Part shown: positions 8,029-59,071 of the stretch, piece after piece
How positions within the stretch are numbered: the first letter of the stretch is position 1
Layout of the letters: the number at the start of each line of letters is the position of its first letter
From: Bathymodiolus japonicus methanotrophic gill symbiont
GTDB lineage: Bacteria; Pseudomonadota; Gammaproteobacteria; Methylococcales; Methylomonadaceae
Length of the DNA stretch: 64,000 bases
Assembly: GCF_019721995.1 (NCBI RefSeq)
Contig: NZ_BLYC01000001.1
Coordinates: 310,001-374,000 of the forward strand
Direction: 5' to 3'
Position numbers and translations under genes: made by a program
Notes under the pieces: generated by a model
The model's database searches: none
Seen by the model: only the letters and a program-made list of their open reading frames with translations
Told to the model about the DNA's origin: nothing

Positions 8029-8571
8029 CGCTTAAAATCAGGGAAACGGAGCCTAAGCGGAGTGATGATTTTTAGTCCCTGGTAGGCGACAGTGCAATTC
8101 GCTGATCCGAAGTGCGCTAGTAGCGCGCGAGGGAGGCAAGAATTGCATTCCGAATAGCCGTCCAGCCATTTGAGGTAGCCTTAACTGAGCAGGGTTTTGT
8201 GCGTACGCTATCAGCCCCGGACGGGCTGATAGTCTCCAGAAGGCGCAGGGAAATTTGCCAATCCGAAGTGCGCGATAGCGCGCGAGGGAGGCTAAAATTT
8301 TATCCCGAATAGCCGTAGAGCCATTTGTGGTAGCCATGACTGAGCTGCTTTGTGCTCAGTCTGTGGCGGACGCAGGGCGGCTGGAGCATCTCCTATTCGC
8401 TGCGTAGGTGAACGAATTACGGCGACAGGAGTCCCGGAATTTCGTGAGGTAGCATGGCGCGCCTGGTTGAGACGGACGCAGGGCGACCAGGGCATCTCCC
8501 ATTCGCTGCGTAGGCGAATGAATGTTGGTGACAGGAGTCCCAGAATGTTGTGAGGTAGCATGGCGCGCCTG
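8029..8571 (+). mobile_element. R280 repeat, copy 2, itself split by R260
   Basis: Outer R280 copy made of 8029-8205 and 8466-8571 (283 bp without the insert). It starts CGCTTAAAATCA and ends GGCGCGCCTG. Its terminal hairpin matches the R295 version more closely than the other R280 copies do. It lies inside the DUF2780 gene with no target duplication. The insert is the R260 unit 8206-8465. Confidence 0.9.
8206..8465 (+). mobile_element. R260 repeat, copy 1, nested in R280
   Basis: A 260-bp unit that starts CGCTATCAGCCCC and ends GGCGCGCCTG. It begins with a perfect CAGCCC/GGGCTG hairpin in place of the GAAAATCA hairpin of R280. Comparison with the R280 copy at 33480-33761 shows that the outer repeat was cut between GTGCGTA and GTTGAGACGG, with no bases duplicated. 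Confidence 0.9.
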
Positions 8572-8920
8572 TGCTCAGGCAGCAGGTGGGGCAGGGGCAA
8601 TTTTTAAAGCCGCACAAGGTCAGCTTGATGCAGGACAATTCGCGCAGTTAAGTTCAGCAGTCCCTGAAATGGATAGTTTATTAAGTGCGGCGCCAAAGCC
8701 ATCGGGTTCTACAGCCAGTTTGATTGGCGGCGCATCGTCACTGTTAGGAGAGAATGCGAGTAGTTATGGTAATTTGGCAACCTTAGCCTCGTCATTTAAA
8801 GACCTGGACCTGTCTGCGGATATGGTCGATCAATTTGTGCCAGTAGTCGTTGATTATGTGAAACAGCGTGGCGGTGATATGACGGGGGACTTATTACAGT
8901 CGGCCTTATATAGTAATTAG
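8572..8920 (+). pseudogene. DUF2780-type secreted protein, 3' part
   Basis: Continues the gene begun at 7769: QAAGGAGAIFKAAQGQLDAG, then a Gly/Ser-rich middle, then DMVDQFVPVVVDYVKQRGG, ending at TAG 8920. The DUF2780 pattern of an alanine-rich helical region and a C-terminal VVDYVKQ helix is visible. Combined length with the 5' part is 609 bases, an exact multiple of three. A local ATG (8522) lies within the repeat and would give a leaderless product. Confidence 0.8.
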
Positions 8921-9028
8921 ATAGTAATGGAATGCGTATTAATTGAGAGCCATTTCGAGCACGGCCTTGCAATAAATTGGCTGACTCTTTGTGCTAAGCA
9001 AGTTGGATAATCTATTATTTATGGCTCT
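8915..9028. repeat. 114-bp direct repeat, left copy
   Basis: Identical or nearly identical to 12612-12725. It starts at the end of the DUF2780 gene and includes most of a small MITE with GAGAGCCAT/ATGGCTCT ends. The two copies abut exactly the outer ends of two inverted IS-alpha elements (9029 and 12611). Confidence 0.88.
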
Positions 9029-10569
9029 CATCAGTGTTCCCCTATCAATTGAGGCCGTGAAACTAACCTCGCCACAAGAGAGCTCATAAAGCACTGTAAA
9101 GACATTCCTGTTATTATTGCGTTTTGAACTGCCCGAATGGTATACGAGCTGATACGAGATATTCTTGCCTGGAAAAATATGGATTCACAAAACGATCTCG
9201 TTTTTGGGCCTGTTGTTGCCTTATCTCCAGAGCCTCGCTATATTTTTTATCCGATGGATGAATCAATTCTGGCTGTTGTGTTTTTGAAATCTCTTCAAAC
9301 ACGCGCATTAAATTATAGCTCATTGCAGTCAGACGCATTTGATCTTCAAGTGAGCGGGTATTGGAAGACCAAGCTTTAGTTTCCTTGAAATTACTTTTAG
9401 TGTTATTGAATGTCTTTTCAATCGTCCATCGCTTGAAATACAGCATGGCAATGGTTCCAGGGTTAATAGTCATTGGCAAGGTTGTCACAAACCGGTGAAG
9501 TTTTCCGGTTTCTGGATCACGGTAATCCACCACGTTAAATTTGATGCCCTTGTTTTCGTACACACTGTATGCTTCAACCCCTGTATTGATCTCATGGTGG
9601 GAGTCAAAAGGGATAGACTCAACCAGAGGCGCAATTGAATTTTCTTTTAGCATTGAAATCATGTAATTAGCATGTCGTTTCTGCCGATCCCACCAGACAA
9701 AGTCGGTGACGGCTTTATCGTAGACATAGAGATGTTTCTGAGAGCTGTTATTTCCCTTGTTTTGCTTTTCAATATGATCTCGTAACACAGGTATTTCTTG
9801 ATGCCTCTGAGTTCCGTTTGTCACCAGACAAAGAAATCTGAGCAACCCACTTCTGAGATTCAACGCGTAAATCCCCCCGGCCGCATAAACTTTCCCCTTG
9901 CTGTTTTTTTCAGTACGGCAGGCATGATCAATAAAATGTCCATCCGCTGCTTCTATGGTGTATTCGTCAAGTTCCGGTAATGCTTTAAGATAATCAATGT
10001 CTTGCGATAGCAGTGTTTCAGAGTGAAGATGGTAGCTCTGCTGTTCAAATGCCTCAAGCATACTTGTTCGTCTATGCGACTTCAGTGATTTAAAATACGT
10101 TGAGTGGGGAAGCAGCTGGCCATAAATCTGTTCATTGGTTTGGAGGAAATGGCGACCACTATCGACTACACTGATACAGCGTAATAACCCAAGGCGAATA
10201 AAGTCGATATCCTTCAACTCTGGGCATGAACGAGCCCACAAAGGATGACGCTCTGCTAACAGGGCAACAGGGCACGTTCCATACTTTCATTGCAGTGTTG
10301 GTGAATATGTTCAGAGAGTGGTAGGTCTTTAAGCATGGGTGATATCCGTTTATGAGGTGATTAAAACGGGAATTTTTAGAAAATTTTTTTCGGTAATTGC
10401 AAGCTTTATTTGAAATTATTTGTTGTTTTTTTACGGTGCCTACAGAGTGTCTATTTGCTGTTATAAGTGATTAAAATCAAAAATATGGAAATATTCGAGT
10501 GGTGCTACCTTCAGGTAGGTTATAGGCTGCTTTGTTTAGGTACTTCTTCTTTCAATGGGAACACTGATG
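9029..10569 (-). mobile_element. IS-alpha (IS4-like), copy 1, broken transposase
   Basis: Terminal inverted repeats CATCAGTGTTCCC and GGGAACACTGATG bound about 1541 bp. The transposase frame spans 9031-10336 on the minus strand. It has an 8-base duplication near 10260 (GGCAACAG) and a one-base deletion near 9179, so the product is truncated at both ends. The DDE-type core is otherwise preserved, including the YFKRWTIEKTFNNTK signature. It is inverted relative to copy 2. Confidence 0.9.
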
Positions 10570-10850
10570 GTAAAGCTAGAAACTTACTGGAAAGGCTGAT
10601 TAATTATGAAGAGGATGTCTTGCGCTTCATGACAAATACCTGGGTGCCATTTACCAATAATGCCGCAGAAAATTCGATTCGGATGGCCAAGGTTCAACAG
10701 AAAATATCCGGCTGCTTTCGTAGTACCAAGGGTGCAGAGATATTTTGTCGTGTCAGAGGGTATTTATCAACGTGCCGTAAACAAGGTCTAAGTGCAACTC
10801 AGGCAATGACCTTGGTCTTTGAGGGAAAGTTACCTGAATTTGCTTTATAA
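10570..10850 (+). pseudogene. IS66-family transposase, C-terminal fragment
   Basis: Encodes GKARNLLERL...VPFTNNAAENSIRMAKVQQKISGCFRS..GYLSTCRKQG, the typical end of IS66 TnpC with the catalytic Glu in NNAAEN. The 5' part is missing because IS-alpha copy 1 joins at 10569. A perfect CTACTCAGC/GCTGAGTAG hairpin follows at about 10861-10881. Confidence 0.85.
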
Positions 10851-10896
10851 TTTCATTGAACTACTCAGCGAAGCTGAGTAGTTACGAAATTGAAGG

Positions 10897-11060
10897 TATA
10901 CTTCGCGCGGTCACGGATGCGGAATTTATAGTACACTGATTTTTGTCGAGGGCAAGGCACTAAAACAGGCGCATAGCTGGCTACGCAACTGTTTAAGCAA
11001 CGCCGCTATCGGCAAAAACTCAGTCGTTAGAAATCCGCAGTCGTGACCGCGCGAAGTATA
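10897..11060. repeat. 164-bp MITE with perfect 19-bp terminal inverted repeats
   Basis: The left end TATACTTCGCGCGGTCACG is matched exactly by its reverse complement at 11042-11060. The interior is a large imperfect palindrome with GGCGCATAGCTGGCTACG at its centre, reminiscent of the P130 repeats but strongly diverged. It lies between an IS66 fragment and IS-alpha copy 2. Confidence 0.82.
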
Positions 11061-11077
11061 TGTAGTATTGTCTTCAT

Positions 11078-12611
11078 CATCAGTGTTCCCATTGAAAGAA
11101 GAAGTACCTAAACAAAGCAGCCTATAACCTACCTGAAGGTAGCACCACTCGAATATTTCCATCTTTTTGATTTTAATCACTTATAACAGCAAATAGACAC
11201 TCTGTAGGCACCGTAAAAAAACAACAAATAATTTCAAATAAAGCTTGCAATTGCCGAAAAAATTTTTCTAAAAATTTCCGTTTTAATCACCTCATAAACG
11301 GATATCACCCATGCTTAAAGACCTACCACTCTCTGAACATATTCACCAACACTGCAATGAAAGTATGGAACGTGCCCTGTTAGCAGAGCGTCATCCTTTG
11401 TGGGCTCGTTCATGCCCAGAGTTGAAGGATATCGACTTTATTCGCCTTGGGTTATTACGCTGTATCAGTGTAGTCGATAGTGGTCGCCATTTCCTCCAAA
11501 CCAATGAACAGATTTATGGCCAGCTGCTTCCCCACTCAACGTATTTTAAATCACTGAAGTCGCATAGACGAACAAGTATGCTTGAGGCATTTGAACAGCA
11601 GAGCTACCATCTTCACTCTGAAACACTGCTATCGCAAGGCATTGATTATCTTAAAGCATTCCCAGAACTTGACGAATACACCATAGAAGCAGCGGATGGA
11701 CATTTTATTGATCATGCCTGCCATACTGAAAAAAACAGCAAGGGGAAAGTTTATGCGGCCGGGGGGATTTACGCGTTGAATCTCAGAAGTGGGTTGCTCA
11801 GATTTCTTTGTCTGGTGACAAACGGAACTCAGAGGCATCAAGAAACACCTGTGTTACGAGATCATATTGAAAAGCAAAACAAGGGAAATAACAGCTCTCA
11901 GAAACATCTCTATGTCTACGATAAAGCCGTCACCGACTTTGTCTGGTGGGATCGGCAGAAACGACATGCTAATTACATGATTTCAATGCTAAAAGAAAAT
12001 TCAATTGCGACTCTGGTTGAGTCTATCCCTTTTGACTCCCGCCATGAGATCAATACAGGGGTTGAAGCATACAGTGTGTACGAAAACAAGGGCATCAAAT
12101 TTAACGTGGTGGATTACCGTGATCCAGAAACCGGAAAACTTCACCGGTTTGTGACAACCTTGCCAATGACTATTAACCCTGGAACCATTGCCATGCTGTA
12201 TTTCAAGCGATGGACGATTGAAAAGACATTCAATAACACTAAAAGTAATTTCAAGGAAACTAAAGCTTGGTCTTCCAATACCCGCTCACTTGAAAATCAA
12301 ATGCGCCTGACTGCAATGAGCTATAATTTAATGCGCGTATTTGAAGAGATTTCAAAAACACAACAGCCAGAATTGATTCATCCATCGGATAAAAAATATA
12401 GCGAGGCTCTGGAGATAAGGCAGCAACAGGCTCAAAAACGAGATCGTTTTGTGAATCCATTATTTTTCCAGGCAAGAATATCTCGTATCAGCTCGTATAC
12501 CATTCGGGCAGTTCAAAACGCAATAATAACAGGAATGTCTTTACAGTGCTTTATGAGCTCTCTTGTGGCGAGGTTAGTTTCACGGCCTCAATTGATAGGG
12601 GAACACTGATG
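11078..12611 (+). mobile_element. IS-alpha (IS4-like), copy 2, complete
   Basis: Bounded by CATCAGTGTTCCC at 11078 and GGGAACACTGATG ending 12611 (1534 bp), with one intact transposase gene (11311-12609). With copy 1 it forms an inverted pair around an IS66 fragment and a MITE. Confidence 0.92.
11311..12609 (+). CDS. IS-alpha transposase (IS4-like DDE), intact
   Basis: 432 residues; the only intact copy of four in the window. It is an RNase-H-fold DDE transposase: candidate first Asp in EAADGHFIDH, a middle block LYVYDKAVTDFVWWDR, and a Glu in the Y-R-E-K type signature YFKRWTIEKTFNNTK. The start was chosen because all four copies share MLKDLPLSEHIHQHC just inside the left end. The stop lies within the right inverted repeat. 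Assignment to the IS4 group rests on the signature, not on a database match. Confidence 0.9.
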   Translation: MLKDLPLSEHIHQHCNESMERALLAERHPLWARSCPELKDIDFIRLGLLRCISVVDSGRHFLQTNEQIYGQLLPHSTYFKSLKSHRRTSMLEAFEQQSYHLHSETLLSQGIDYLKAFPELDEYTIEAADGHFIDHACHTEKNSKGKVYAAGGIYALNLRSGLLRFLCLVTNGTQRHQETPVLRDHIEKQNKGNNSSQKHLYVYDKAVTDFVWWDRQKRHANYMISMLKENSIATLVESIPFDSRHEINTGVEAYSVYENKGIKFNVVDYRDPETGKLHRFVTTLPMTINPGTIAMLYFKRWTIEKTFNNTKSNFKETKAWSSNTRSLENQMRLTAMSYNLMRVFEEISKTQQPELIHPSDKKYSEALEIRQQQAQKRDRFVNPLFFQARISRISSYTIRAVQNAIITGMSLQCFMSSLVARLVSRPQLIGEH

Positions 12612-12725
12612 AATTAGATAGTAATGGAATGCGTATTAATTGAGAGCCATTTCGAGCACGGCCTTGCAATAAATTGGCTGACTCTTTGTGCTAAGCAAGT
12701 TGGATAATCTATTATTTATGGCTCT
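12612..12725. repeat. 114-bp direct repeat, right copy
   Basis: Second copy of 8915-9028. Here the enclosed small MITE is complete (about 12636-12734), with ends near TAATTGAGAGCCAT and ATGGCTCTTAATTA. The start of the VTT gene follows immediately. Confidence 0.88.
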
Positions 12726-12730
12726 TAATT

Positions 12731-12964
12731 ATGATCACTTTACTTCGACATAGCTATACATCGCGACGAATTCTTACGTCTTTAGTCGTTATTATCAGTG
12801 TGATATTTATCGGCTATTGGCTGGAAAGTCATGTTGCACTGATTGAAGCAGGTTTAACTGAATTAGGTCCCTGGGCGCGAGCGCAGGGTTTATTGCACTA
12901 TTTATAGTGCTTACGCCGTTGTTTTTTTCAGTCGATGTCTTATGTGTGACTGAAGTTTCTTAGA
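12731..12964 (+). pseudogene. VTT/DedA-like (TVP38-type) membrane protein, 5' fragment
   Basis: ATG 12731 begins MITLLRHSYTSRRILTS, then a membrane segment (VVIISVIFIGYWL) and an ESHVALIEAGLTELGPWA region typical of TVP38/TMEM64 N termini. A frameshift near 12886 is needed to continue into GFIALFIVLTPLFFSVDVL. The frame then runs out and R295 begins at 12983. The matching 3' part is 15836-16211. About 2.9 kb of mobile DNA separates them, and the middle of the protein is missing. Confidence 0.7.
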
Positions 12965-12982
12965 AATTCATCAAGCAACCAT

Positions 12983-13277
12983 CGCTGAAAATCAGGGAAA
13001 CGGAGCCTAAGCGAAGTGATGATTTTTAGTCCGCGATAGCCGTAGGGCCGTTGTTTTGTCGGAGTCTGAGCGTTAGCGAAGGTGGAGACAAAATAAAAGG
13101 CCATCCGACACGGCGTCAAGTCATTTGGAGCCTATGTTCCGACCCCTTGTTGGGTCGGGACGAGGTGACGAGGACGAATCGGGGCCGCCGGAGGCATAAG
13201 TGGTCGCGTTAAGTTTTTGCCGCTTGCTTGGGCTGGGATGCCCAAAACAAGCTTTCGCAAAAATAGCGACTCCCCGA
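12983..13277 (+). mobile_element. R295 repeat, copy 1
   Basis: 295 bp from CGCTGAAAATCA to GCGACTCCCCGA. Internal hairpins include CCGACCC/GGGTCGG and a long 3'-terminal hairpin (GTCGC..TTTTTGC..GCTTG pairing with CAAGC..GCAAAAA..GCGAC). It forms the junction between the VTT gene fragment and an IS-delta fragment, so it looks like a recombination junction, not a simple insertion. Confidence 0.88.
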
Positions 13278-14288: not shown

Positions 14289-14300
14289 CGCTGAAAATCA

Positions 14301-16211: not shown

Positions 16212-16261
16212 AAGTTGATATTTATTGTAGTAAAAATGAATTGAGGCGGGCATAAGCTAAC

Positions 16262-27234: not shown

Positions 27235-28327
27235 ATGTTCATTTTACGCGATATTTTACTCCCGCTTCAAGATCATTTTTCCGAAACCACTTTAGGCCGC
27301 GAACGAGCCTCTCTGTTCGTTTACACGATCCTGTCTATTATCGTTCCTTTTACGTCATCAATGACCTCTAATCTTTGGCGTTGCCTTGATACGTTGTTTG
27401 GGTTTGAGATCAAGAATAAGCGCTTTTACACTTTCATGGCTTCTTCAACTTTGCCGTGGGCTGTGGAAAACTATCTGGGAGCTGATTCCGTCTCCTGAAA
27501 CAGATGGGCGCATATTGGTTGCACTGGATGACTCCATTATCACTAAATTAGGTAAGAAGATCTTCGGCTGTGAAGCCATTTTTGACCACGCGGCCAAATC
27601 GAATCAAAGCAAATATCCATGGGCACAAAACATTGTATCGGTAGGGTTGCTGAAACAGGTCAAAGGTCGCTGGGCGTGCTTACTTTTAGATTTCCGATTT
27701 TATCTGCCCTTAAAAACAATTCAGGCAAAAAAAGAAACCGCCACGATAAGAGGTGATGTCGTTCCTTTCCAGACCAAGATGGCTTAGGCGGCTCAAATGC
27801 TGATTGCAATTGCAATTGCAGAACATTTTTCCACCGCTCCGATATTGACAGTCACTGATAGCTGGTTTGGCAACAATGGCCTATGGAAGTCTGTTTACAA
27901 AGCTATCGGGGAGTCGCTATTTTTGCGAAAGCTTGTTTTGGGCATCCCAGCCCAAGCAAGCAGCAAAAACTTAACGCGACCACTTATGCCTCCGGCGGCC
28001 CCGATTCGTCCTCGTCACCTCGTCCCGACCCAACAAGGGGTCGGAACATAGGCTCCAAATGACTTGACGCCGTGTCGGATGGCCTTTTATTTTGTCTCCA
28101 CCTTCGCTAACGCTCAGACTCCGACAAAACAACGGCCCTACGGCTATCGCGGACTAAAAATCATCACTTCGCTTAGGCTACGTTTCCCTGATTTTCAGCG
28201 TCGGAAGCCGGTTTAATATTCTCTCTAGGTTAAGGTGCAATAATGTACTGTACGATCGTCCAGAAAAAAGAAAACCCAAGCAGAGGGGGCGGAATAAAAA
28301 GTACGGGCAGCGTCTGGGGGCAGCCAC
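27235..28327 (+). pseudogene. IS-delta (IS4/IS701-like) transposase, copy 2, multiply broken
   Basis: N terminus MFILRDILLPLQDHFSETT begins at 27235. There is a frameshift near 27460, an in-frame TAG near 27786 (MA-stop-AAQMLIAI, a CAG to TAG change relative to copy 1), a six-base repeat expansion near 27805, and R295 inserted at 27906-28200. The candidate first catalytic Asp is in LVALDDSIITKLGKK and the second in LTVTDSWFGNNGLW. The gene ends at 28327, where R280 begins and IS-delta homology stops. Confidence 0.82.
27906..28200 (-). mobile_element. R295 repeat, copy 2, inserted in IS-delta
   Basis: Runs TCGGGGAGTCGC to TTTTCAGCG on this strand. Comparison with IS-delta copy 1 (around 13935) shows AAAGCTA joined directly to TCGGAAGCC when the repeat is removed, with no duplication. 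Reverse orientation relative to the transposase. Confidence 0.9.
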
Positions 28328-28607
28328 CGCTGAAAATCATGGAAACGGAGCTTAGCGAAGTGGTGATTTTTAGTCCCTGATAGGCGACAGGGCAATTCGC
28401 TGATTCGACGTGTGCTAGAAGCACGCGAGAGGAGCAAGAATTGCATTCCGAATAGCCGTCCAGCCAGTGAGGTAGTAATGACGAAGCGGCTTTTGTGCGT
28501 AGTCGTTGCGGACGCAGGGCGTTCAGGGCATCTCCCATCCGCTGCGTAGGTGAACGAATTATGGCGACAGGAGTCCCGGAATTTCGTGAGGTAGCATGGC
28601 GCGCCTG
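28328..28607 (+). mobile_element. R280 repeat, copy 3
   Basis: CGCTGAAAATCATGG to GGCGCGCCTG, 280 bp. The left flank is IS-delta and the right flank is an unrelated gene remnant, so this is a junction copy. Confidence 0.9.
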
Positions 28608-28850
28608 TTCAACAAAAACCTCATAAACACGCACGCCCCAGTATGCGCCAAAGCTTAGCAATGACACGACAAATGCCGGAATAATCCACGGCCCGATACT
28701 GCGCCCGTGAATGATAGCATTTTGGTACAAATGCAACAATACTCAGTAAAGATAAGTAGGAAATCCAGGCAGGGTAAGCGTCGGATGCTGCTGCGGGTAT
28801 TTCCTGTGCGACTTGTAGGTCTATAGGTTCTAGTGTCTTATCAGCATCAA
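28608..28850 (-). pseudogene. Remnant of an unrecognised membrane protein gene
   Basis: Reverse strand: a first frame reads AYPAWISYLSLLSIVAF; after a frameshift near 28740 a second frame reads NAIIHGRSIGPWIIPAFVVS..YWGVRVYEVFVEQ up to the R280 edge. Both parts have a hydrophobic segment. It is bounded by R280 on one side and R295 on the other, so both ends are lost. Family not recognised. Confidence 0.45.
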
Positions 28851-28851
28851 C

Positions 28852-29146
28852 CGCTGAAAATCCTGGAAACGGAGCTTTAGCGAAGTGAAGATTTTTAGTC
28901 CGCGATAGCCGTAGGGCCGTTATTTTGTCGGAGTCTGAGCGTTAGCGAAGGTGGAGACAAAATAAAAGGCCATCCGACACGGCGTCAAGTCATTTGGAGC
29001 CTATGTTCCGACCCCTTGTTGGGTCGGGACGAGGTGACGAGGACGAATCGGGGCCGCCGGAGGCATAAGTGGTCGCGTTAAGTTTTTGCTGCTTGCTTGG
29101 GCTGGGATGCCCAAAACAAGCTTTCGCAAAAATAGCGACTCCCCGA
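28852..29146 (+). mobile_element. R295 repeat, copy 3
   Basis: CGCTGAAAATCCTGG to GCGACTCCCCGA, 295 bp. Left flank is host remnant DNA, right flank is the 3' part of IS-beta. It is therefore a junction copy. Confidence 0.88.
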
Positions 29147-30007
29147 GATTGCATTAGGCTTATTAAAAGAGTTTAAAGTTGCGCATAGCCTGATTAAAAT
29201 TAAAGGCGTACTGGCTTGATGCGCTGTATGGTGAAAAAGCCTTTATGGACGAAGCCGCTAAAGAATCTGGAGGCTCGCAGGTGATTAGCCAATTACGTAA
29301 AAACCAAAATATTGAATATAGAGGTAGAATAAGGTCAGTCGAGAGCTACTTTAATTCGATTAACAAAGGCATTGATCAGATAATACGTGTACGTGGCGGC
29401 AAAGAGATTAAAGTGACTGTCAGCAGTGCACGATTGAAGGTGAGTTCTCACAGTAAAAAACGCTTTGTCATTGCCTTAAAATATGACGGTGAAAACGACT
29501 ATCGCTATTTAGTGGCGACAGGCCTGACTTGGCGCACACAAGATATTATTCAAGCCTATACGTTGAGATGGCTGATTGAGGTTTTCTTTGAGGACTGGAA
29601 GCTTTATGAAGGATGGGGGCGTGAGGCCAAACAATTAGATGAAGAGGGATCAAGCCGTGGCCTGATTCTGAGTCTTTTGTTTGACCATTGCCTTCTCCTT
29701 CACCCAGAGCAAATAGCCCGCATTGAAAGCAAACTACCTGCGTATACCGTAGGAAGCTTACAGCGCAAGTCTCAAATGGATGTACTGCTTGAGTTCATCA
29801 CGTCATTGCTAGCGTTTCCAGATCCTGGTGATAAGCTGAAAGAGTTAGGTGAATTAATAAAGGATGTGTTTCAACTGATGCCATCAGGAAAACATATGAT
29901 TGGCAGAGATTTAGGGCGCTTAGGGCCAACAGCATCATTAAAGTATTGTTCTGCTGGGTGAAGGTAAGAGTTTGATGGCAATGGGATGGAAAAACTTGAA
30001 CATCGAG
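29147..30007 (+). pseudogene. IS-beta, copy 1, 3' part only
   Basis: Starts inside the IS-beta transposase at GATTGCATTAGG and ends at the right inverted repeat CTTGAACATCGAG. An extra T near 29216 shifts the frame. The open part 29245-29961 encodes the C-terminal half with YTLRWLIEVFFEDWKLYEG. The 5' half is replaced by R295. Confidence 0.88.
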
Positions 30008-30110
30008 TGATAGGCGCTACTAAAAAAAGCAATCAGAATAATGGCTAGAAAAATAATATTCATACGTTATGCTAGTTATTATGATAATACGGGCATGGAT
30101 AGCCTAAATG

Positions 30111-30464
30111 TTATTTGTTATTGCCCAATGACATTACCAGGATAACAAACAGGATAATTAACAAGACTGGCCAAAAATAGGGGACCATGAAAAACACGCC
30201 AAGCATGACAAAGCTTATTGCGCCGATAAAGACAAGCATGCCCACGCCAATAAAAACCAGTACTATCAGTAGCACTGAAAAAATCAGTGAAATAAATAAT
30301 GTAGGTAGCGCAGCAAAACGTACTAAAGGATCAGCTACCGGCTCACCATTAATCATCACTCCAAACTGGCCAACACCCGGATGAAATAAATATAATAGCG
30401 TAGCGATGAGTGTACTCATAATCAGGACTTTAAAAAAGATACTTGATTTTTGTGTCTGTGCCAT
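30111..30464 (-). CDS. Hypothetical small membrane protein
   Basis: 117 residues from the ATG at 30464; the longer frame continues into R260 and is an artefact. The sequence begins MAQTQKSSIFFKVLIMSTL and contains about three membrane segments (residues ~10-28, ~50-72, ~75-110). Family not recognised. It is preceded by R260 at 30516, which probably separates it from its original promoter context. Confidence 0.6.
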   Translation of the reverse strand: MAQTQKSSIFFKVLIMSTLIATLLYLFHPGVGQFGVMINGEPVADPLVRFAALPTLFISLIFSVLLIVLVFIGVGMLVFIGAISFVMLGVFFMVPYFWPVLLIILFVILVMSLGNNK

Positions 30465-30515
30465 AAGGTTAAAGTTCCTGTTGGTAAATTTTATAGGGCT
30501 ATATTTGGCCGCTGT

Positions 30516-30775
30516 CGCTGTCAGCCCCGGACGGGCTGATAGTCTCCAGAAGGCGCAGGGAAATTTGCCAATCCGAAGTGCGCGATAGCGCGCGAGGGAG
30601 GCCAAAATTTTATCCCGAATAGCCGTAGAGCCATTTGTGGTAGCCATGACTGAGCTGCTTTGTGCTCAGTCTGTGGCGGACGCAGGGCGGCTGGAGCATC
30701 TCCTATTCGCTGCGTAGGTGAACGAATTACGGCGACAGGAGTCCCGGAATTTCGTGAGGTAGCATGGCGCGCCTG
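30516..30775 (+). mobile_element. R260 repeat, copy 2
   Basis: CGCTGTCAGCCCC to GGCGCGCCTG, 260 bp. Its right end lies in the 3' end of the cation-efflux gene and supplies that protein's last residues. Confidence 0.9.
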
Positions 30776-31737
30776 TATTGTTTTTGTGTATCCAGGGCAT
30801 CCGGGTGTAGAGTACAGGTATGCAGCGTTGTTCCCTGCTCCATTTGCAGGGTGCTATGCTGGATAGAAAAGCGCTCTTTTAGGGTACAGATAATATCATC
30901 CATAAAAGCATCCCCAGGGTAACCTTGCGGAATAACCAGGTGTGCACTCAAAGCGCCTTCGCTAGTGCTAATGCCCCAGATATGTAAATCATGCACATCA
31001 ACTACGCCGGTACATTGGAGTAGATAGTTTTCCACGGCCGCTACATCGATACCTTCAGGCACGGCGGCTAAAATCAGGCGTAGAGAGTCGCGTAATAAGC
31101 CCCAGGTACTAATGGTAACTATCATCACAATCAGCAGACTCACGACCGGATCCAGCCAGTACCAGCCGGTATACATCATAGCCAGACCAGCGACAACAAC
31201 CCCTAGCGAGACGGCTGCATCAGCCATCATATGTAAATAGGCTCCACGTATATTCAGGTCTTGCTTACTGCCTTTAACAAATAGCCAGGCAGACAGGCCA
31301 TTAATAACAATTCCGACCGCAGCAACAAGAGTCACGGTAAAACCAGCGACCTCGGGTGGCTGACTAAAGCGTAATATCGCCTCCCATGAGATAGCGCCAC
31401 AGGCTAATAGCAGAATCATGGCATTAGCCAGCGCAGCTAAAATAGACGTGCTACGCAGCCCATAGGTGTAGCGCTGGCTGGGGGCTTTACGTGAAAGGAT
31501 TGCTGCCCCCCAGGCGAGGACTAAGCCCAGCACATCGGATAAATTATGCCCTGCATCAGCCATGAGCGCAGTTGAATTGGCAATAAAACCATAACTGAAC
31601 TCAACGCTGACGTAAATCACATTTAATATTATGGCAATAACAAAGGCGCGACCATGATTATCAGGATCGGCATGATGATGAGAATGACCGTGATGATCAT
31701 GGCTATGCGTCTGTTTTTTCTGCTGCTTCATTCCCAT
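30727..31737 (-). CDS. Cation diffusion facilitator (zinc/cobalt-type efflux), with repeat-derived C terminus
   Basis: 336 residues. The His-rich N terminus (HSHDHHGHSHHHADPDNH) and six membrane segments fit a CDF transporter exporting Zn2+ or similar. Metal-site motifs are STALMADAGHNLSDVL and LHMMADAAVSLGVV (HxxxD/DxxxD type), followed by a cytoplasmic domain with VHDLHIWGIS. The native sequence ends around DALDTQKQY. The final RRAMLPHEIPGLLSP is encoded by the R260 repeat that replaced the original stop. The start could be M1 or M3. Confidence 0.9.
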   Translation of the reverse strand: MGMKQQKKQTHSHDHHGHSHHHADPDNHGRAFVIAIILNVIYVSVEFSYGFIANSTALMADAGHNLSDVLGLVLAWGAAILSRKAPSQRYTYGLRSTSILAALANAMILLLACGAISWEAILRFSQPPEVAGFTVTLVAAVGIVINGLSAWLFVKGSKQDLNIRGAYLHMMADAAVSLGVVVAGLAMMYTGWYWLDPVVSLLIVMIVTISTWGLLRDSLRLILAAVPEGIDVAAVENYLLQCTGVVDVHDLHIWGISTSEGALSAHLVIPQGYPGDAFMDDIICTLKERFSIQHSTLQMEQGTTLHTCTLHPDALDTQKQYRRAMLPHEIPGLLSP

Positions 31738-33479: not shown

Positions 33480-33761
33480 CAGGCGCGCCATGCTACCTCA
33501 CGAAATTCTGGGACTCCTGTCACCAACATTCATTCGCCTACGCAGCGAATGGGAGATGCCCTGGTCGCCCTGCGTCCGTCTCAACTACGCACAAAACCCT
33601 GCTCAGTTAAGACTACCTCAAATGGCTGGACTGCTATTCGGAATGCAATTCTTGCCTCCCTCGCGCGCTACTAGCGCACTTCGGATCAGCGAATTGCCCT
33701 GTCGCCTATCAGGGACTAAAAATCACCACTTCGCTAAGCTCCGTTTCCATGATTTTCAGCG
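33480..33761 (-). mobile_element. R280 repeat, copy 4
   Basis: 282 bp in reverse orientation. Subtype with the GTGCGCT/AGCGCGC stem. It is the best uninterrupted comparison for the R280 copy at 8029-8571. Confidence 0.9.
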
Positions 33762-34436: not shown

Positions 34437-34696
34437 CGCTGTCAGCCCCGGACGGGCTGATAGTCTCCAGAAGGCGCAGGGAAATTTGCCAATCCGAAGT
34501 GCGCGATAGCGCGCGAGGGAGGCTAAAATTTTATCCCGAATAGCCGTAGAGCCATTTGTGGTAGCCATGACTGAGCTGCTTTGTGCTCAGTCTGTGGCGG
34601 ACGCAGGGCGGCTGGAGCATCTCCTATTCGCTGCGTAGGTGAACGAATTACGGCGACAGGAGTCCCGGAATTTCGTGAGGTAGCATGGCGCGCCTG
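34437..34696 (+). mobile_element. R260 repeat, copy 3, inserted in IS-beta
   Basis: Flanks TTCCATCCCA and TTGCCATCAAAC join exactly as in the uninterrupted IS-beta copy around 52885-52910, with no duplicated base. This is the cleanest direct proof of the insertion mode. Confidence 0.93.
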
Positions 34697-35251: not shown

Positions 35252-35531
35252 CAGGCGCGCCATGCTACCTCACGAAATTCCGGGACTCCTGTCGCCATAA
35301 TTCGTTCACCTACGCAGCGGATGGGAGATGCCCTGAACGCCCTGCGTCCGCAACGACTACGCACAAAAGCCGCTTCGTCATTACTACCTCACTGGCTGGA
35401 CGGCTATTCGGAATGCAATTCTTGCTCCTCTCGCGTGCTGCTAGCACACGCCGAATCAGCGAATTTCCCTGTCGCCTATCAGGGACTAAAAATCACCACT
35501 TCGCTAAGCTACGTTTCCATGATTTTCAGCG
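35252..35531 (-). mobile_element. R280 repeat, copy 5, in IS-gamma
   Basis: CAGGCGCGCC to TTTTCAGCG, 280 bp. Flanks ACCAAAACAA and AAAGCCTTG join in frame without duplication. Orientation is opposite to the transposase, unlike the copy in the DUF2780 gene. Confidence 0.9.
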
Positions 35532-37146: not shown

Positions 37147-37441
37147 CGCTGAAAATCAGGGAAACGGAGCCTAAGCGAAGTGATGATTTTTAGTCCTCGA
37201 TAGCCGTAGGGCCGTTATTTTGTCGGAGTCTGAGCGTTAGCGAAGGTGGAGACAAAATAAAAGGCCATCCGACACGGCGTCAAGTCATTTGGAGCCTATG
37301 TTCCGACCCCTTGTTGGGTCGGGACGAGGTGACGAGGACGAATCGGGGCCGCCGGAGGCATAAGTGGTCGCGTTAAGTTTTTGCTGCTTGCTTGGGCTGG
37401 GATGCCCAAAACAAGCTTTCGCAAAAATAGCGACTCCCCGT
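37147..37441 (+). mobile_element. R295 repeat, copy 4, in IS-gamma
   Basis: CGCTGAAAATCAGGG to GCGACTCCCCGT, 295 bp. Its left flank CTGCGTT and right flank ATCAAC rejoin as CTG CGT TAT CAA, in frame. Confidence 0.9.
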
Positions 37442-48869: not shown

Positions 48870-48934
48870 AAAATTCTCGTTGTTTTTATTATGATTTCTG
48901 GAGTATTGAGCTAACTAAAGAGGCAATTTAGTAA

Positions 48935-50064: not shown

Positions 50065-50359
50065 CGCTGAAAATCAGGGAAACGTAGCCTAAGCGAAGTG
50101 ATGATTTTTAGTCCGCGATAGCCGTAGGGCCGTTGTTTTGTCGGAGTCTGAGCGTTAGCGAAGGTGGAGACAAAATAAAAGGCCATCCGACACGGCGTCA
50201 AGTCATTTGGAGCCTATGTTCCGACCCCTTGTTGGGTCGGGACGAGGTGACGAGGACGAATCGGGGCCGCCGGAGGCATAAGTGGTCGCGTTAAGTTTTT
50301 GCTGCTTGCTTGGGCTGGGATGCCCAAAACAAGCTTTCGCAAAAATAGCGACTCCCCGA
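50065..50359 (+). mobile_element. R295 repeat, copy 5
   Basis: 295 bp, CGCTGAAAATCAGGG to GCGACTCCCCGA. Joins a truncated P130 repeat to a truncated IS-beta, hence a junction copy. Confidence 0.88.
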
Positions 50360-52162: not shown

Positions 52163-52463
52163 CGCTGAAAATCAGGGAAACGGAGCCTAAGCGAAGTGAT
52201 GATTTTTAGTCCGCGATAGCCGTAGGGCCGTTATTTTGTCGGAGTCTGAGCGTTAGCGAAGGTGGAGACAAAATAAAAGGCCATCCGACACGGCGTCAAG
52301 TCATTTGGAGCCTATGTTCCGACCCCTTGTTGGGTCGGGACGAGGTGACGAGGACGAGGACGAATCGGGGCCGCCGGAGGCATAAGTGGTCGCGTTAAGT
52401 TTTTGCTGCTTGCTTGGGCTGGGATGCCCAAAACAAGCTTTCGCAAAAATAGCGACTCCCCAA
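52163..52463 (+). mobile_element. R295 repeat, copy 6, in the Ig-like gene
   Basis: 301 bp because GACGAG is duplicated once internally. It starts CGCTGAAAATCAGGG and ends GCGACTCCCCAA. Deleting it rejoins CTG ACC GC and A GTG CTA GAT (L-T-A-V-L-D) in frame. Confidence 0.9.
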
Positions 52464-52865
52464 AGTGCTAGATACTGATGTCAGCAATGGTGTGCTTGCC
52501 CTGGATCCCGATGGCAGTTTTACCTATACCCCAACTCGATTACTTGATGGGACAGATACCTTTAGCTATCATGCCAATGATGGTACTTTTGACAGCAACA
52601 TCGTGACAGTCACCATCACGGTAAATCACATCAATCATCCACCAATTGCGCAGGATGACGGCTACAAAACACCTGAAGATACGCGGCTCAAAGTTACCTC
52701 AGCCAAAGGTGTTTTACACAACGATACCGACCCTGATGTACATGACACCTTGCACGCCATCAAGGTCACTGATCCTGGCCATGGCTCGCTGACATTAAAT
52801 GCAGATGGTAGCCTGGTTTATACGCCAAATGCTAATTACAACGGTCTGGATAGTTTTACCTATAA

Positions 52866-54396
52866 CTCGATGTTCAAGTTTTTCCATCCCATTGCCATCA
52901 AACTCTTACCTTCACCCAGCAGAACAATACTTTAATGATGGTGTTGGCCCTAAGCGCCCTAAATCTCTGCCAGTCATATGTTTTCCTGATGGCATCAGTT
53001 GAAACACATCCTTTATTAATTCACCTAACTCTTTCAGCTTATCACCAGGATCTGGAAACTCTAGCAATGACGTGATGAACTCAAGCAGTACATCCATTTG
53101 AGACTTGCGCTGTAAGCTTCCTACGGTATACTCAGGTAGTTTGCTTTCAATGCGGGCTATTTGCTCTGGGTGAAGGAGAAGGCAATGGTCAAACAAAAGA
53201 CTCAGAATCAGGCCACGGCTTGATCCCTCTTCATCTAATTGTTTGGCCTCACGCCCCCATCCTTCATAAAGCTTCCAGTCCTCAAAGAAAACCTCAATCA
53301 GCCATCTCAACGTATAGGCTTGAATAATATCTTGTGTGCGCCAAGTCAGGTCTGTCGCCACTAAATAGCGATAGTCGTTTTCACCGTCATATTTTAAGGC
53401 AATGACAAAGCGTTTTTTACTGTGAGAACTCACCTTCAATCGTGCACTGCTGACAGTCACTTTAATCTCTTTGCCGCCACGTACACGTATTATCTGATCA
53501 ATGCCTTTGTTAATCGAATTAAAGTAGCTCTCGACTGACCTTATTCTACCTCTATATTCAATATTTTGGTTTTTACGTAATTGGCTAATCACCTGCGAGC
53601 CTCCAGATTCTTTAGCGGCTTCGTCCATAAAGGCTTTTTCACCATACAGCGCATCAGCCAGTACGCCTTTAATTTTAATCAGGCTATGCGCAACTTTAAA
53701 CTCTTTTAATAAGCCTAATGCAATCTCTGTTTTGGTCGGGTAGGCACTGTCACGTTCAGGCTTAATAGGCCGATCTTTTTTTGCTATACCGCTCTTTTTC
53801 AACCGTTTATCTTCTTTATCCCACTGCTTTAAGGCTGGACCCGGCATATAAAAGAAAAAACCGACAGGCACTGTAATGGATGAGGTAACTAGCAGCAATA
53901 ATACTATCGTTTGTCCATTAACATACCCGCCGGAGCCTTTGTGTTTCTGCTTGTAACCTTTATAAATACGTTTTGTAGACTTAGATCGTGCTCGGTCTGA
54001 TTCATCAAAGGCCAACACACCTTCAGTAATGCCATAACGTTTTAAAATTAAGACCACACTCACCCGTAGCAACCAGTCCCAGGGTATACTTGCTTTACGA
54101 AACACCCAGGATAATGCGGCTACTTTGCAATCTCCAAGGCTTGCTCGCTCAAACTTAGCCCAGCAAACAGAGTTCATTAGCAGTATGCCCGTTAAACAAG
54201 TGCCCAACCAAGCGGCTTGAATCCGTGTCAAAGCGGCTCCGGGTTTTAGCTGATTGAGCGCATCATTTAAATCGTCAATATAGCTTTGGATAAAGGTGGC
54301 TGGGGCATTCATTAACATGGGCTTACACCGATAAAATTACAACAACCTCAGAATACCTGATTTTACCTTCTCAATATCAAAAACTTGAACATCGAG
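52866..54396 (-). mobile_element. IS-beta, copy 5, complete, in the Ig-like gene
   Basis: 1531 bp with CTCGATGTTCAAG ends and TATAA on both sides (52861-52865, 54397-54401). Removing it and one TATAA restores SFTYKANDGHT. Confidence 0.95.
52912..54318 (-). CDS. IS-beta transposase (IS4-like DDE), intact
   Basis: 468 residues; the only intact copy of five. Candidate catalytic positions are Asp in VLAFDESDRARS, Asp in KGVLADALYGEKAF, and Glu in YTLRWLIEVFFEDWKLYEG, matching the Y-R-E-K style of IS4-like enzymes. The start MLMNAPATFIQSYIDD is conserved in all copies with a 5' end. Family placement is from motifs only. Confidence 0.9.
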   Translation of the reverse strand: MLMNAPATFIQSYIDDLNDALNQLKPGAALTRIQAAWLGTCLTGILLMNSVCWAKFERASLGDCKVAALSWVFRKASIPWDWLLRVSVVLILKRYGITEGVLAFDESDRARSKSTKRIYKGYKQKHKGSGGYVNGQTIVLLLLVTSSITVPVGFFFYMPGPALKQWDKEDKRLKKSGIAKKDRPIKPERDSAYPTKTEIALGLLKEFKVAHSLIKIKGVLADALYGEKAFMDEAAKESGGSQVISQLRKNQNIEYRGRIRSVESYFNSINKGIDQIIRVRGGKEIKVTVSSARLKVSSHSKKRFVIALKYDGENDYRYLVATDLTWRTQDIIQAYTLRWLIEVFFEDWKLYEGWGREAKQLDEEGSSRGLILSLLFDHCLLLHPEQIARIESKLPEYTVGSLQRKSQMDVLLEFITSLLEFPDPGDKLKELGELIKDVFQLMPSGKHMTGRDLGRLGPTPSLKYCSAG

Positions 54397-54647
54397 TATA
54401 AAGCCAACGACGGACATACCGATAGCAATGCAGTAACGGTTGATATTACGGTTAATGCGGTTAATGATGCGCCTATACCAAGCGCTGATCACTATACGAC
54501 TGCCGAAGATACAGTGTTAAATATTGATAGTGCACATGGTGTACTGGTGAATGATATTGAGCCTGATGGGGATCAGATGTCTGCAGTTAAATTTAGTGAC
54601 CCAGCTCATGGACCAGTGGTTTTTAATTTAGATGGAAGTTTTGTTTA

Positions 54648-54850
54648 CTGAAGTTTCCCAATAATTATTTATGGTAAAATTGAAAATATGCTACAGCTAT
54701 ATGAAAAAATAGTCTTTTCATTCGTTTCAAATGCTATTGCCTAAGGGGAATTAAGTAGGGGTTTGCTATAAACATGGCAAAACTACCTAAAATAAACCTC
54801 GATACACCAGCATTGTGTATTTCAGCTACTCAATAATTGGGAAACTTCAG
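54648..54850 (-). repeat. MITE-D, copy 3, in the Ig-like gene
   Basis: 203 bp. TTGTTTA is duplicated at 54641-54647 and 54851-54857. Removal restores GSFVYTPATNF. Confidence 0.92.
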
Positions 54851-56673
54851 TTGTTTATACTCCGGCTACTAATTTTACGGGTGATGACAATTTTATCTAT
54901 AAAGTGTCTGACGGAAAACTGGGTTCGGGTGATGTGACTGTCACGATTACGGTCACCCTGGTAAATGCCCCACCTGTCGCTTTGGCGGATGCCTATAGTG
55001 TCCATGAAGATACTGGCATAAGTATTGATGCAGCCCATGGATTACTTCATAACGACTCCGATCCAGAACATAATCAACTGACAGTTAGCTTAGTCAGTAA
55101 TGTTAGCAACGGCACGCTACAGATCAATAAGGATGGCAGCTTTGACTATACCCCCGCAACTAATTACAACGGTCTGGATAGTTTTAGCTATAAAGCAAAC
55201 GATGCTCAACTTGATAGTAACACGGTAACAGTACGTTAAACATTGATGCGGTGAATGATGCACCTGTTGGAGTCAATGATCACTATGTGATCCCTGAAGA
55301 TACAGTATTGCAGATTATTGCGCAGCAAGGTGTATTGGCTAATGATAGTGATATAGACGGAGATAAGCTACGGGCTTTTAAATTTACTAATCCGGCAAAC
55401 GGAATCGTGAATTTTAATCTCGATGGTAGTTTTAGCTATACGCCTAATCCTAATTTTAATGGCCTGGATAGTTTCATCTATAAGATTTCAGATGGCACGT
55501 TAGGGAGTAATGAAACGACAGTCAGCATTGACGTTCATGCAGTTAATGATGCCCCTGTAGCTCAGGCTGATGTCTATAACACGCCTGAAGATACGCCCAT
55601 TAAGGTGACTTCAGCTCAGGGTGTGTTAAACAATGACATCGACCCTGATGGAGACACCTTTGCTGGATTACAAACCAGCGCTCCTGCGCACGGAAAAGTG
55701 AAATGGGTTCCTTGGGATGGTAGCTCTATTTACACCCCAAACACCAACTTTAATGGTACGGATAGTTTTACTTATAAAGCCTGGGACGGACATTTACTGA
55801 GTAATGAGGTAACAATTACCATCAACGTACATCCAGTGGATGATGCGCCTGTGGCAACTGATGATTTATATTCTGTGGGTGAAGATGGTTTCTTGAAAGT
55901 AACTGTAGCCAAAGGACTGCTGGCCAATGACCATGATGTTGATGGTAATATCTTGCGCGTGAATAGTATAGTTTCATCAGTGGCTAATGGTGCTTTACAG
56001 ATGAGTCTTGATGGCAGCTTTACTTATAAACCCAACTTCGGTTTTTTTGGTACAGACAGTTTTACCTACAAAGCGAATGATGGAAAAGTTAATAGTGTCG
56101 TGGCAACAGTCACCATTACAGTAACCCATGTTAACCATCCTGTACTACCGAATGCTGATGCCTATACCATAACTCAGGGTGGCCTTTTAACAGTAACAAC
56201 CGCCAATGGACTGTTAGCCAATGACCTGGATATTGATGGCGATACACTACTGGTAAGCAATATCCCAACTAGCGTCAGCCATGGTACCCTGCAAATGATG
56301 CTGGATGGTTCATTTACCTATAAACCTGATCCCGGTTATAGCGGCCCCGATAGCTTTACCTATATAGTCAATGACGGCAGTATCGACAGCGCCCCGGTAA
56401 CTGTGAGTCTGACCGTAATCCACACCAATCATGAACCTTTAGCTGCAGGTGATGCCTACAGTGTGGTCCAAGATGGCATTTTAACTATTCCAGCTCCGGG
56501 CTTATTGGCAAATGACCTGGATATAGATGGCGATAAGCTGTTTGTTTTGATTCAGACTTTTCCAGCTAATGGCGCATTGCATCAGGACTTAGACGGCGGC
56601 TTCACCTATCAACCGGCCCCCGGTTTTCAGGGCGTTGATAGCTATTCCTATATGGCTAGTGACAGTCACTTAA

Positions 56674-56953
56674 CAGGCGCGCCATGCTACCTCACGAAAT
56701 TCCGGGACTCCTGTCGCCATAATTTGTTCACCTACGCAGCGGATGGGAGATGCCCTGAACGCCCTGCGTCCGCAACGACTACGTACAAAAGCCGCTTCGT
56801 CATTACTACCTCACTGGCTGGACGGCTATTCGGAATGCAATTCTTGCTCCTCTCGCGTGCTGCTAGCACACGTCGAATCAGCGAATTGCCCTGTCGCCTA
56901 TCAGGGACTAAAAATCACCACTTCGCTAAGCTCCGTTTCCATGATTTTCAGCG
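56674..56953 (-). mobile_element. R280 repeat, copy 6, in the Ig-like gene
   Basis: 280 bp. Left flank is Ig-like coding sequence, right flank is an IS3-type end, so it is a junction copy. The Ig frame reads through it, giving about 100 residues of repeat-encoded sequence before a stop at 57008. Confidence 0.88.
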
Positions 56954-57111
56954 TTTGAACAAAACTATCAGTTCGATGGGCTGGAACTACCCCCCCGTGT
57001 CAGGATAGTTTTCGCCTTATTTGAAAAATAATAACTCAAACAAGGGGCGGAAAAATAAAACCATGACAACTCAATACCCAAAAGAAAGAAAAGATGCCAT
57101 CATTAACAAAA
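56954..57111 (+). mobile_element. IS3-family left-end fragment with orfA start
   Basis: A short non-coding end (GTGTCAGGATAGTTTTCGCC region) precedes ATG 57063, which encodes MTTQYPKERKDAIINK, the typical N terminus of an IS3-group OrfA. It is cut by MITE-D at 57112. Confidence 0.65.
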
Positions 57112-57315
57112 CTGAAGTTTCCCAATAATTATTTATGGTAAAATTGAAACTATGCTACAACCATATGAAAAAAATAGTCTTTTCATTCGTTTCAAATGCT
57201 ATTGCCTAAGGGGAATTAAGTAGGGGTTTGCTATAAACATGGCAAAACCACCTAAAATAAACCTCGATACACCAGCATTGTGTATTTCAGCTACTCAATA
57301 ATTGGGAAACTTCAG
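57112..57315 (-). repeat. MITE-D, copy 4
   Basis: 204 bp with both ends. The flanks (ACAAAA, TATTAC) do not match, so it is a junction copy: IS3 scrap on the left, Ig-like coding sequence on the right. Confidence 0.9.
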
Positions 57316-57837
57316 TATTACAGGTTAATGTCGCTAATGGCCTGTTAGCTAACGATTCTGATCCAGATGCCAATATACTGCAGCCCATTATCGTCACTCA
57401 GCCAGCAAATGGCATAGTGCATGTATTAGCCGGTGGCAGCTTTAGCTATCAGCCGAACAGCGGATTTTCAGGTGTGAATAGTTTTACCTACAAGGCCAAT
57501 GACGGCATTGCTGACAGTAATACGGCAATTGTGAAAATTACGGTCAATGCAGTAAATCATGCTCCAATAGCAAAAGCAGGCAACTACTCCACGCCACGGA
57601 ATGTGCCACTACAGGTTAGAGCACCGGGTATATTGACAGGCGTATCCGATCCGGATGGTGACCAACTGACAGCACGTTTAATTACCCCGCCAGCAGAAGG
57701 TTCACTACACATGAACCATGATGGTAGCTTTACCTACACGCCAAAGCCAGCGCCAATTAGAAGAGCAGCGCTCGCTAATCAGGTAAGTTTTACCTTTGTG
57801 GTATCGGATGGAAGTAAAAAAAGTGCGAAAACAGTGA

Positions 57838-58176
57838 TACAAAATTTCCAAGGGGATCATTTTACAGCAAATTGATAGCGGATTTTCGGTATCGATACAG
57901 TCTGGCTATAATGGTGTTGAAGCGGTATTAGTGCTAATCGCGGCCATGCTTGCATTTCCATCGCCCTGGAAATTTAAGTTATGGGGGATAATCACAGGAT
58001 TTTTTGCGGTGGAATTGCTGAATATTGTGCGTATTATTTCCTTGTTTTATCTGGGTCAATGGAATCAGGATATTTTTGAATGGGCGCATTTATATATCTG
58101 GCAGGCACTGATTATGCTGGATGTATTAATTATCTTTTTACTCTGCTCAGGCTCTTACCTGCAGACCAAGAGGTAA
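57838..58176 (+). pseudogene. xrtH: Exosortase H, N-terminally truncated, catalytic Cys replaced by Tyr
   Basis: The frame is open from 57838 (after TGA 57835) to the stop at 58174-58176. It reads GIILQQIDSGFSVSIQSGYN, GVEAVLVLIAAMLAFPSPW, LLNIVRIISLFYLGQWN and FEWAHLYIWQALIM. The family triad is Cys (in SGCNGVEA), Arg (NIVR) and His (EWAH). Arg and His remain, but the Cys position is TAT (Tyr). The first ~50 residues with the N-terminal membrane helix are lost at a junction with the Ig-like gene near 57840. Exosortase H processes IPTL-CTERM proteins. Identification is from motif order and the downstream partner. Confidence 0.78.
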
Positions 58177-58182
58177 GTGTTG

Positions 58183-59071
58183 ATGCCCATGCAAGTTAGT
58201 CCCTCGCTGAAAATCAGGGAAACGGAGCCTAAGCGAAGTGATGATTTTTAGTCCGCGATAGCCGTAGGGCCGTTATTTTGTCGGAGTCTGAGCGTTAGCG
58301 AAGGTGGAGACAAAATAAAAGGCCATCCGACACGGCGTCAAGTCATTTGGAGCCTATGTTCCGACCCCTTGTTGGGTCGGGACGAGGTGACGAGGACGAA
58401 TCGGGGCCGCCGGAGGCATAAGTGGTCGCGTTAAGTTTTTGCTGCTTGCTTGGGCTGGGATGCCCAAAACAAGCTTTCGCAAAAATAGCGACTCCCCGAT
58501 AGTTGCATTTGTTATCAAGGTATTTCTATTTTTACCACTATGTTACTGGGGCAGGTATGCTTTGGCTGAACTGGCAACGTCTGTTGTTGTGTATTGGTCG
58601 GAGCCATTATTACAGCTTTTGTTTCCAGTGCTAATTGCCGGTATTGAGCAAATCGGCTACCGGATTGAGGTGATAGCAGAGGTGACTGTTGCTAGCCAGA
58701 ATGTGCCAAAAGGGATGGTTGCTGAATTACCGATTCCGGTGAATCCTTTGATATACAGTTATGGCTTGCCGCTTGCATTAGCGCTGATTCTGGCTTTTAC
58801 CAGGACGTTGCGGAATATAATTATCAGTATTTTAGTGTTTCTGCTTATTCAGATCTGGGGCATCTGTTTTGAATCCCTGAAAGTGCTGTTTTTGCAAACG
58901 CCAGCCGAATTGCTGGGTAATATAAAACTGCCTGGCTGGCAACTGGATATTATTGCGCTGGGTTATCAGTTGGGTGCATTGATACTTCCGGCTGTGACTC
59001 CCGTTATCATCTGGGTATGGTTTTATAAAGATTTTATAGCCGGTTTTGTACCTGCAATGGGTAAACGGTAG
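58183..59071 (+). pseudogene. Exosortase-H-associated membrane protein, split by R295
   Basis: Start MPMQVSP at 58183, R295 at 58205-58499, then VAFVIKVFLFLPLCYWGRYAL to the end. Without the repeat the gene is 594 bases (197 residues) in frame. There are about five membrane segments and a periplasmic stretch VASQNVPKGMVAELPIPVNP. Position directly after exosortase H supports assignment to the XrtH-associated family. An in-repeat start at 58439 could still give a product with a repeat-encoded leader (MLLAWAGMPKTSFRKNSDSP). The stop lies in a REP-like repeat. Confidence 0.75.
58205..58499 (+). mobile_element. R295 repeat, copy 7, in the XrtH-associated gene
   Basis: 295 bp. Flanks AGTCCCT and TAGTTGC rejoin as AGT CCC TTA GTT GCA, in frame, no duplication. 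Confidence 0.9.

Follow-up and report, generated by a model that had tools for sequence, protein, structure and literature searches.

The question raised by a 64,000-nucleotide stretch of the Bathymodiolus japonicus methanotrophic gill symbiont genome (contig NZ_BLYC01000001.1, positions 310,001 to 374,000; hereafter, the window) is how three types of short hairpin-rich repeats, R280, R260 and R295, are able to move, as no gene belongs to them in the DNA that was read. This DNA, window included, amounts to 2.05 Mb, or 41% of the 4.97 Mb source genome (109 contigs), and the counts of copies, ends, empty sites and strands given below refer to it. There is good support for considering R280, R260 and R295 to be transposase-less elements whose mobile form is a folded single strand of DNA. 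They form an element family of the single-strand type, in which a single fixed base marks the cut sites at the two ends and in the target. The fold takes in the whole length of the element and is backed by compensatory changes between genera. The C-N-N-N^ target (^ marks the cut), the C-N-N-N terminus of the element itself, the orientation following GC skew and the end-to-end fold are all new with respect to the preliminary description of this locus.

Copy number, empty sites and cut rule

The reference copies of the three types all come from the window (Table 1). The DNA read contains 144 partial pieces in addition to 524 full copies (203 R295, 176 R280 and 145 R260). The latter span 147 kb, about 7% of this DNA, and extrapolation gives an estimate of about 1,270 full copies for the whole genome. 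The presence of hundreds of near-identical copies rules out chance as the source of these repeats.

All 524 full copies were queried for empty sites within the read DNA of the same genome. An empty site could be recovered for 209 copies, and in 203 of these the target is rebuilt exactly, with no base gained or lost; the remaining 315 copies have no empty site in the DNA read. Among the inexact cases, the element is one base shorter in two, and four contain additional bases (3, 6, 18 or 21); the stretch of 18 repeats the terminus of the element itself. The lack of target duplication proposed in the preliminary description therefore holds for 97% of the testable copies but is not universal.

The position -4 before the left end is occupied by C in 516 of 524 copies (478/486 if only distinct left flanks are counted); five of the eight exceptions have C at -3. 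C is scarce at -5 (23/524), as is G at -1 (16/524). Otherwise the target is permissive: 54 of the 64 possible CNNN words occur, and no base is fixed to the right of the insertion. The same rule applies to the right end of the element, which has C at -4, i.e., a C-N-N-N terminus, in 522/524 copies: CCGA and its tail variants in R295, CCTG in R280 and R260. The R295 dinucleotide following CCCC is variable (GA, AA, GC, GT, AT) even between copies with identical bodies. A register slip within CCCC is not supported as the cause of this variability, since the tails are mostly R-H and not random. Target positions -5 to -1 are predicted to be slightly more unpaired than those of control sites (0.529 vs 0.471, p=0.002; 300 sampled sites, one control CNNN each).

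The left-end rule extends to relatives. Among the matches listed, all 53 distinct left-end sites in named genomes have C at -4 and none has C at -5. Six other genera provided 15 full-length homologs in which the left end is intact, and all 15 have C at -4; these overlap in part with the 53 sites, and three fetched relatives lacking the left end were excluded. The right boundary in relatives is set by alignment alone and is ambiguous in some of them; right ends fitting CNNN are CCGA, CCGG, CTGA and CTGC, as well as CTTG in seven of the eight complete Methylotuvimicrobium buryatense copies.

Two kinds of rearranged copies were also encountered. Seven left-end palindromes, perfect or nearly so and 29, about 48 or 183 bp long, are located at G000:C3:109943-110125, C6:115593-115775, C8:100568-100750, C2:205075-205103, C3:20752-20780, C1:303494-303541 and C1:71278-71325. 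They have C at -4 on both strands. That they reflect a fold-back extension intermediate was considered and rejected, a contiguous empty site being present in 0/7 cases. Apparently, these palindromes arose at hairpins, as joints of rearrangements involving inverted copies. The other kind is R280 reduced to 100 bp by an internal deletion (9-bp repeat GGCGACAGG), found at G000:C1:167260-167359, C3:231466-231565 and C4:76363-76462. All three sites have C at -4 and one has a contiguous empty site, so this form may itself be mobile.

Orientation relative to replication

On each of the 13 contigs covered by this count the majority orientation of the elements corresponds to the sign of the contig GC skew, which is followed by 411 of 524 copies overall; contig C6 follows it narrowly (18:15). 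In 20-kb skew bins the bias is weaker than per contig (200:85 and 82:149; 173:53 and 33:115 for bins with skew >0.03). The favoured strand has slightly fewer of the eligible sites (46.9%), which means that the bias is not explained by composition. Positive GC skew marks the leading strand. With fork direction deduced from GC skew in this way, the top strand of the element would lie on the lagging-strand template. The lagging-strand template is also described as the target of IS608 and ISDra2 (PMC6006769).

Secondary structure and distribution among relatives

The consensus fold, derived from sixteen full-length sequences with relatives 76-85% identical to R295, has 90 pairs. Pairing is retained in 96.9% of cells and double-sided changes are present in 20 pairs, compared to 6.8 in shuffles, none of which (0/500) reaches 20; sliding the fold out of register leaves 2 to 8 such pairs. 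G-U pairs at columns 2-48 and 5-45 are invariant in 16/16 sequences. As these would be C-A on the opposite strand, the top strand is the folding one. The left stem begins at base 2 of the element. At the other end, R295 terminates in CCCCGA, and these six bases pair helically with TCGGGG further upstream. In R280 and R260, the terminal CCTG pairs with an upstream CAGG in all six variants aligned, without covariation. When folded singly as DNA, R295 and R260 are more stable than shuffled sequences (z -3.0 for both), while R280 is not (z -0.4). The single-strand route suggested in the preliminary description is well supported by the empty sites, the replication-strand bias and the conserved top-strand fold.

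Of the 151 genomes of the host's family, 106 have matches to R295, some of them short. Named records containing the same repeats belong mostly to methanotrophs (Methylomonas, Methylobacter, Methylotuvimicrobium, Crenothrix and others), and the laboratory methanotroph Methylotuvimicrobium buryatense 5G is among the carriers. Among the matches listed, at least 49 stretches come from Methylococcales kin or their symbionts and from three other names: a thiotrophic symbiont, a Rhodospirillales metagenome-assembled genome (MAG) and an unclassified gammaproteobacterial MAG.

Four loci of the Bathymodiolus platifrons methanotrophic gill symbiont (L313, L315, L316 and L337) carry R280 and R295 copies 98.6-99.6% identical to those of the present genome. 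Long gene stretches of that symbiont matching the DNA read are about 74-79% identical, and this difference suggests a recent horizontal spread of the repeats. A sister family in M. buryatense (L302, L308, L312, L324, L332, L334 and L339) combines the left half of R295 with a different right end, GGCGCGCTTG in 7/8 complete copies.

Candidate enzymes

The cut rule resembles that of bacterial topoisomerase I (Topo I). The E. coli, M. luteus and M. tuberculosis enzymes are reported to cleave single-stranded DNA at CXXX^ (PMC2702276), and the E. coli and M. tuberculosis sites given as mapped all have C at -4 (PMC2702276, PMC7587558, PMC11999072). The cut is described as leaving a 5'-phosphotyrosine and a 3'-OH (PMC7587558). 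E. coli Topo III cuts differently, at CTT^. The resemblance goes beyond -4: the 26 published Topo I sites have T15 G6 A5 C0 at -5 and T10 C9 A4 G3 at -1, compared to T196 G149 A114 C19 and T226 C141 A96 G15 for 478 unique insertions, so that in both sets C is avoided at -5 and G is the rarest base at -1. Outside -4, the base preferences of the two sets are correlated (r=0.63, 16 values; p=0.013 by permutation). When scored by the Topo I preferences, insertions also exceed the 12,963 other CNNN words present in their flanks (p=4e-31). A search of the genome has found one PF01131 match, the 782-aa open frame of TopA, which is the one type IA topoisomerase detected. Its alignment with E. coli Topo I (1ecl) shows that Arg169 is kept; replacement of this residue is reported to switch the -4 preference, while that of Arg173 does not (PMC7587558).

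Topo I is a better fit to the cut rule than the known transposases considered. Our leading hypothesis is that host Topo I makes the cuts, although we would stop just short of calling it probable; somewhat more tentatively, we propose an entire mobile element family devoid of a transposase and moved by the housekeeping type IA Topo I, which would cut CNNN^ at the ends and at the target in the course of replication. Baring of the lagging-strand template at the fork would allow the top strand to fold. TopA would then cut single-stranded DNA with C at -4, once at the left flank (CNNN^CGCTG) and once at the terminus of the element itself (CCGA^ or CCTG^), with a 3'-OH and a 5'-phosphotyrosine as products. 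Crosswise joining of these strand ends to those of a target cut at CNNN^ would follow, and the insertion would become double-stranded by replication.

Several points weigh against this proposal. T at -3 is found in 121/478 insertions and in 0/26 published Topo I sites, which come largely from GC-rich substrates, making the normalisation for composition rough. The ends of the elements themselves are at odds with target preferences, as targets disfavour both the G at -1 with which R280 and R260 end and the C at -5 of the R295 terminus CCCGA, and two right ends in relatives break the CNNN rule: L142 (TCGG) and the eighth complete M. buryatense copy (TTTG). TopA of the symbiont has Tyr in place of Arg173 and Phe in place of Tyr177; reverse gyrases are reported to have Phe at the latter position and to share the C preference (PMC7587558). 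A type IA topoisomerase normally closes the break it has made, and an exchange of ends has to be assumed in addition. Finally, Topo I is universal while the R elements, among the matches listed, have a narrow range, which a mechanism relying on the host alone fails to explain. In the open-access literature searched, Topo I is not shown as an engine of mobile elements, and neither a topoisomerase-mobilised element nor the R repeat family was found.

The elements could instead be moved in trans by an HUH/Y1 enzyme, either a RAYT or a TnpA of the IS200/IS605 type, in the manner of PATEs and REPINs; the strand, the lack of duplication and the terminal hairpins would be as in the Topo I proposal, with a different enzyme. 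We regard this main rival as only a little less likely than Topo I. Y1 elements are described as inserting into single-stranded DNA without duplication and with a lagging-strand bias (PMC7290912), RAYT-type genes exceed the cut-off in 124 of 151 relatives, and the terminal CCGA and CCTG are able to pair with the upstream TCGG and CAGG in a guide-like manner. The present genome contains 22 Y1 matches, of which, by reading of the matches, one is a full-length uninterrupted gene, RAYT-like and coding for 222 aa. However, the Y1 target is described as a specific tetra- or pentanucleotide located 5' of the insertion (PMC7290912), whereas here a single base is fixed, and TnpA-REP is reported to cut at CT or CA (PMC8266576). 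The best match of the RAYT model in the genome is weak (E 7.9e-19), the 222-aa protein scoring 65 bits against the NCBIfam RAYT cut-off of 80. R sequence was present at 0/30 RAYT loci, 1/29 loci of the 222-aa type and 3/38 further loci from the Y1 search, in each case as partial pieces, the loci checked being the best-scoring ones; RAYT was rejected as a mobiliser for the lack of physical linkage at these fetched loci. In genomes such as G018, G044 and G061, which have R295-type matches, a search with the 222-aa protein gives nothing at E 0.001, though other RAYTs are present in them. The IS200 copies of the genome are broken and were likewise rejected, since their ends are unlike those of the R elements; C is at -4 in two of their four distinct left flanks, with the boundary set by alignment only. 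GTAG, which in REP/REPIN-RAYT systems (REPtrons) adjoins the hairpin, is found in R295, judged by position only, at the foot of an internal helix and not at the terminal stems.

A longer autonomous element with the same two ends, a search for which was advised in the preliminary description, was not found in the DNA read. There are 596 left and 602 right ends. Of the left ends, 76 lack a right end 255-305 nt further on, and for 54 of these the next right end lies 306-10,000 nt away; we viewed the first 75 bases of each of the 76 and read four regions for genes. Two candidates were discarded: C2:201545-203771 is an R280 interrupted by an insertion sequence (IS), and at C1:181406 a partial left end adjoins an IS that has IS3-like frames. 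Of the four Y1 matches in this DNA, none falls within the span from a left end to the right end that follows it. With no fixed target tetranucleotide and with different IS200 ends as well, membership in the HUH type, IS200/IS605-derived group suggested in the preliminary description is not supported. RAYT genes are plentiful in the host's family, with up to 25 matches per genome among the 151 genomes; the present genome has four.

The R elements do work like PATEs and REPINs. They share with IS200/IS605-derived PATEs the lack of duplication, terminal stems, single-strand polarity, lagging-strand bias, small size and absence of a transposase. PATEs, however, have a fixed tetra- or pentanucleotide target and a same-ended Y1 element, and the R fold is conserved over the whole ~290 nt. 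REP/REPIN systems with a RAYT are similar in comprising hundreds of hairpin repeats mobilised in trans in gammaproteobacteria. REPINs are about 20-100 nt long. The R elements differ in their length of 260-295 nt, in the target (CNNN^ vs CT/CA) and in showing no RAYT linkage. Without a fixed target word and a linked enzyme, they are not filed here as members of either group.

A different single-strand or retro-type enzyme is an unlikely explanation, e.g., a reverse transcriptase (RT) system joining a folded RNA or cDNA to the target CNNN-3'OH. The conserved internal helices do resemble structured RNA, the genome has five RT-domain matches, and the terminal dinucleotide of R295 differs between copies of identical body, as expected of untemplated ends. 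On the other hand, the target rule applies to the left 5' end, which would be unexpected for target-primed reverse transcription, and in the window no Rfam family reaches the gathering threshold (the three matches in 28300-30800, best E 0.97, are at chance level). The same Rfam result led us to reject a group I/II intron or an IStron, together with the orientation of the 183 copies interrupting reading frames: 77 sense and 106 antisense (p=0.04), which means that the R elements are not introns. Ordinary double-strand miniature inverted-repeat transposable elements (MITEs) of the DDE type, with their duplications overlooked, are also short, numerous and gene-less, and 3 to 21 extra bases do occur at 4/209 copies. 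Nevertheless, we find this hardly conceivable: the empty sites, 203 of 209 of them without target-site duplication, rule it out, and the strand bias, the one-sided target rule and two ends that are unlike in sequence and are not mutual inverted repeats argue against it as well.

Copies in the window

All 16 copies listed in the preliminary description are present at the starts it gave (Table 1). Most have the lengths of 280, 260 and 295 nt considered there to be tightly fixed, except for one R280 and one R295. The R280 variant beginning at 8029 is present but is not one unit, being split by an R260. As for the eight insertions said to be reversible, only part of them was re-tested: six of the 15 unsplit window copies have an empty site, exact in all six, and the other nine have none in the read DNA of the same genome.

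Table 1. R elements of the window (positions are those of the window; exact empty sites are located elsewhere in the genome).
Element	Position	Strand	Left flank	Remarks
R280	5863..6142	-	CCAA	
R280 variant, left part	8029..8205	+	CATC	split by R260
R260	8206..8465	+	CGTA	inside R280 variant; exact empty site
R280 variant, right part	8466..8571	+		BLAST piece 8473-8571; start set by R260 end
R295	12983..13277	+	CCAT	exact empty site
R295	27906..28200	-	CCGA	exact empty site
R280	28328..28607	+	CCAC	reference copy
R295	28852..29146	+	CAAC	
R260	30516..30775	+	CTGT	reference copy
R280 variant	33480..33761	-	CCAT	282 nt
R260	34437..34696	+	CCCA	exact empty site
R280	35252..35531	-	CTTT	exact empty site
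R295	37147..37441	+	CGTT	end CCCCGT; exact empty site
R295	50065..50359	+	CCGT	
R295	52163..52463	+	CCGC	301 nt, end CCCCAA
R280	56674..56953	-	CAAA	
R295	58205..58499	+	CCCT	reference copy

Significance

The one-base target rule, the orientation relative to replication, the fold conserved across genera and the hundreds of copies for which no linked enzyme was found place the R elements in a single-strand family outside the target rules known to us. If Topo I is indeed their engine, they would represent a categorically new, transposase-free kind of mobile element. This would offer one route to explaining other bacterial repeats that have no known enzyme and would mean that a type IA topoisomerase is able to exchange strands in cells.

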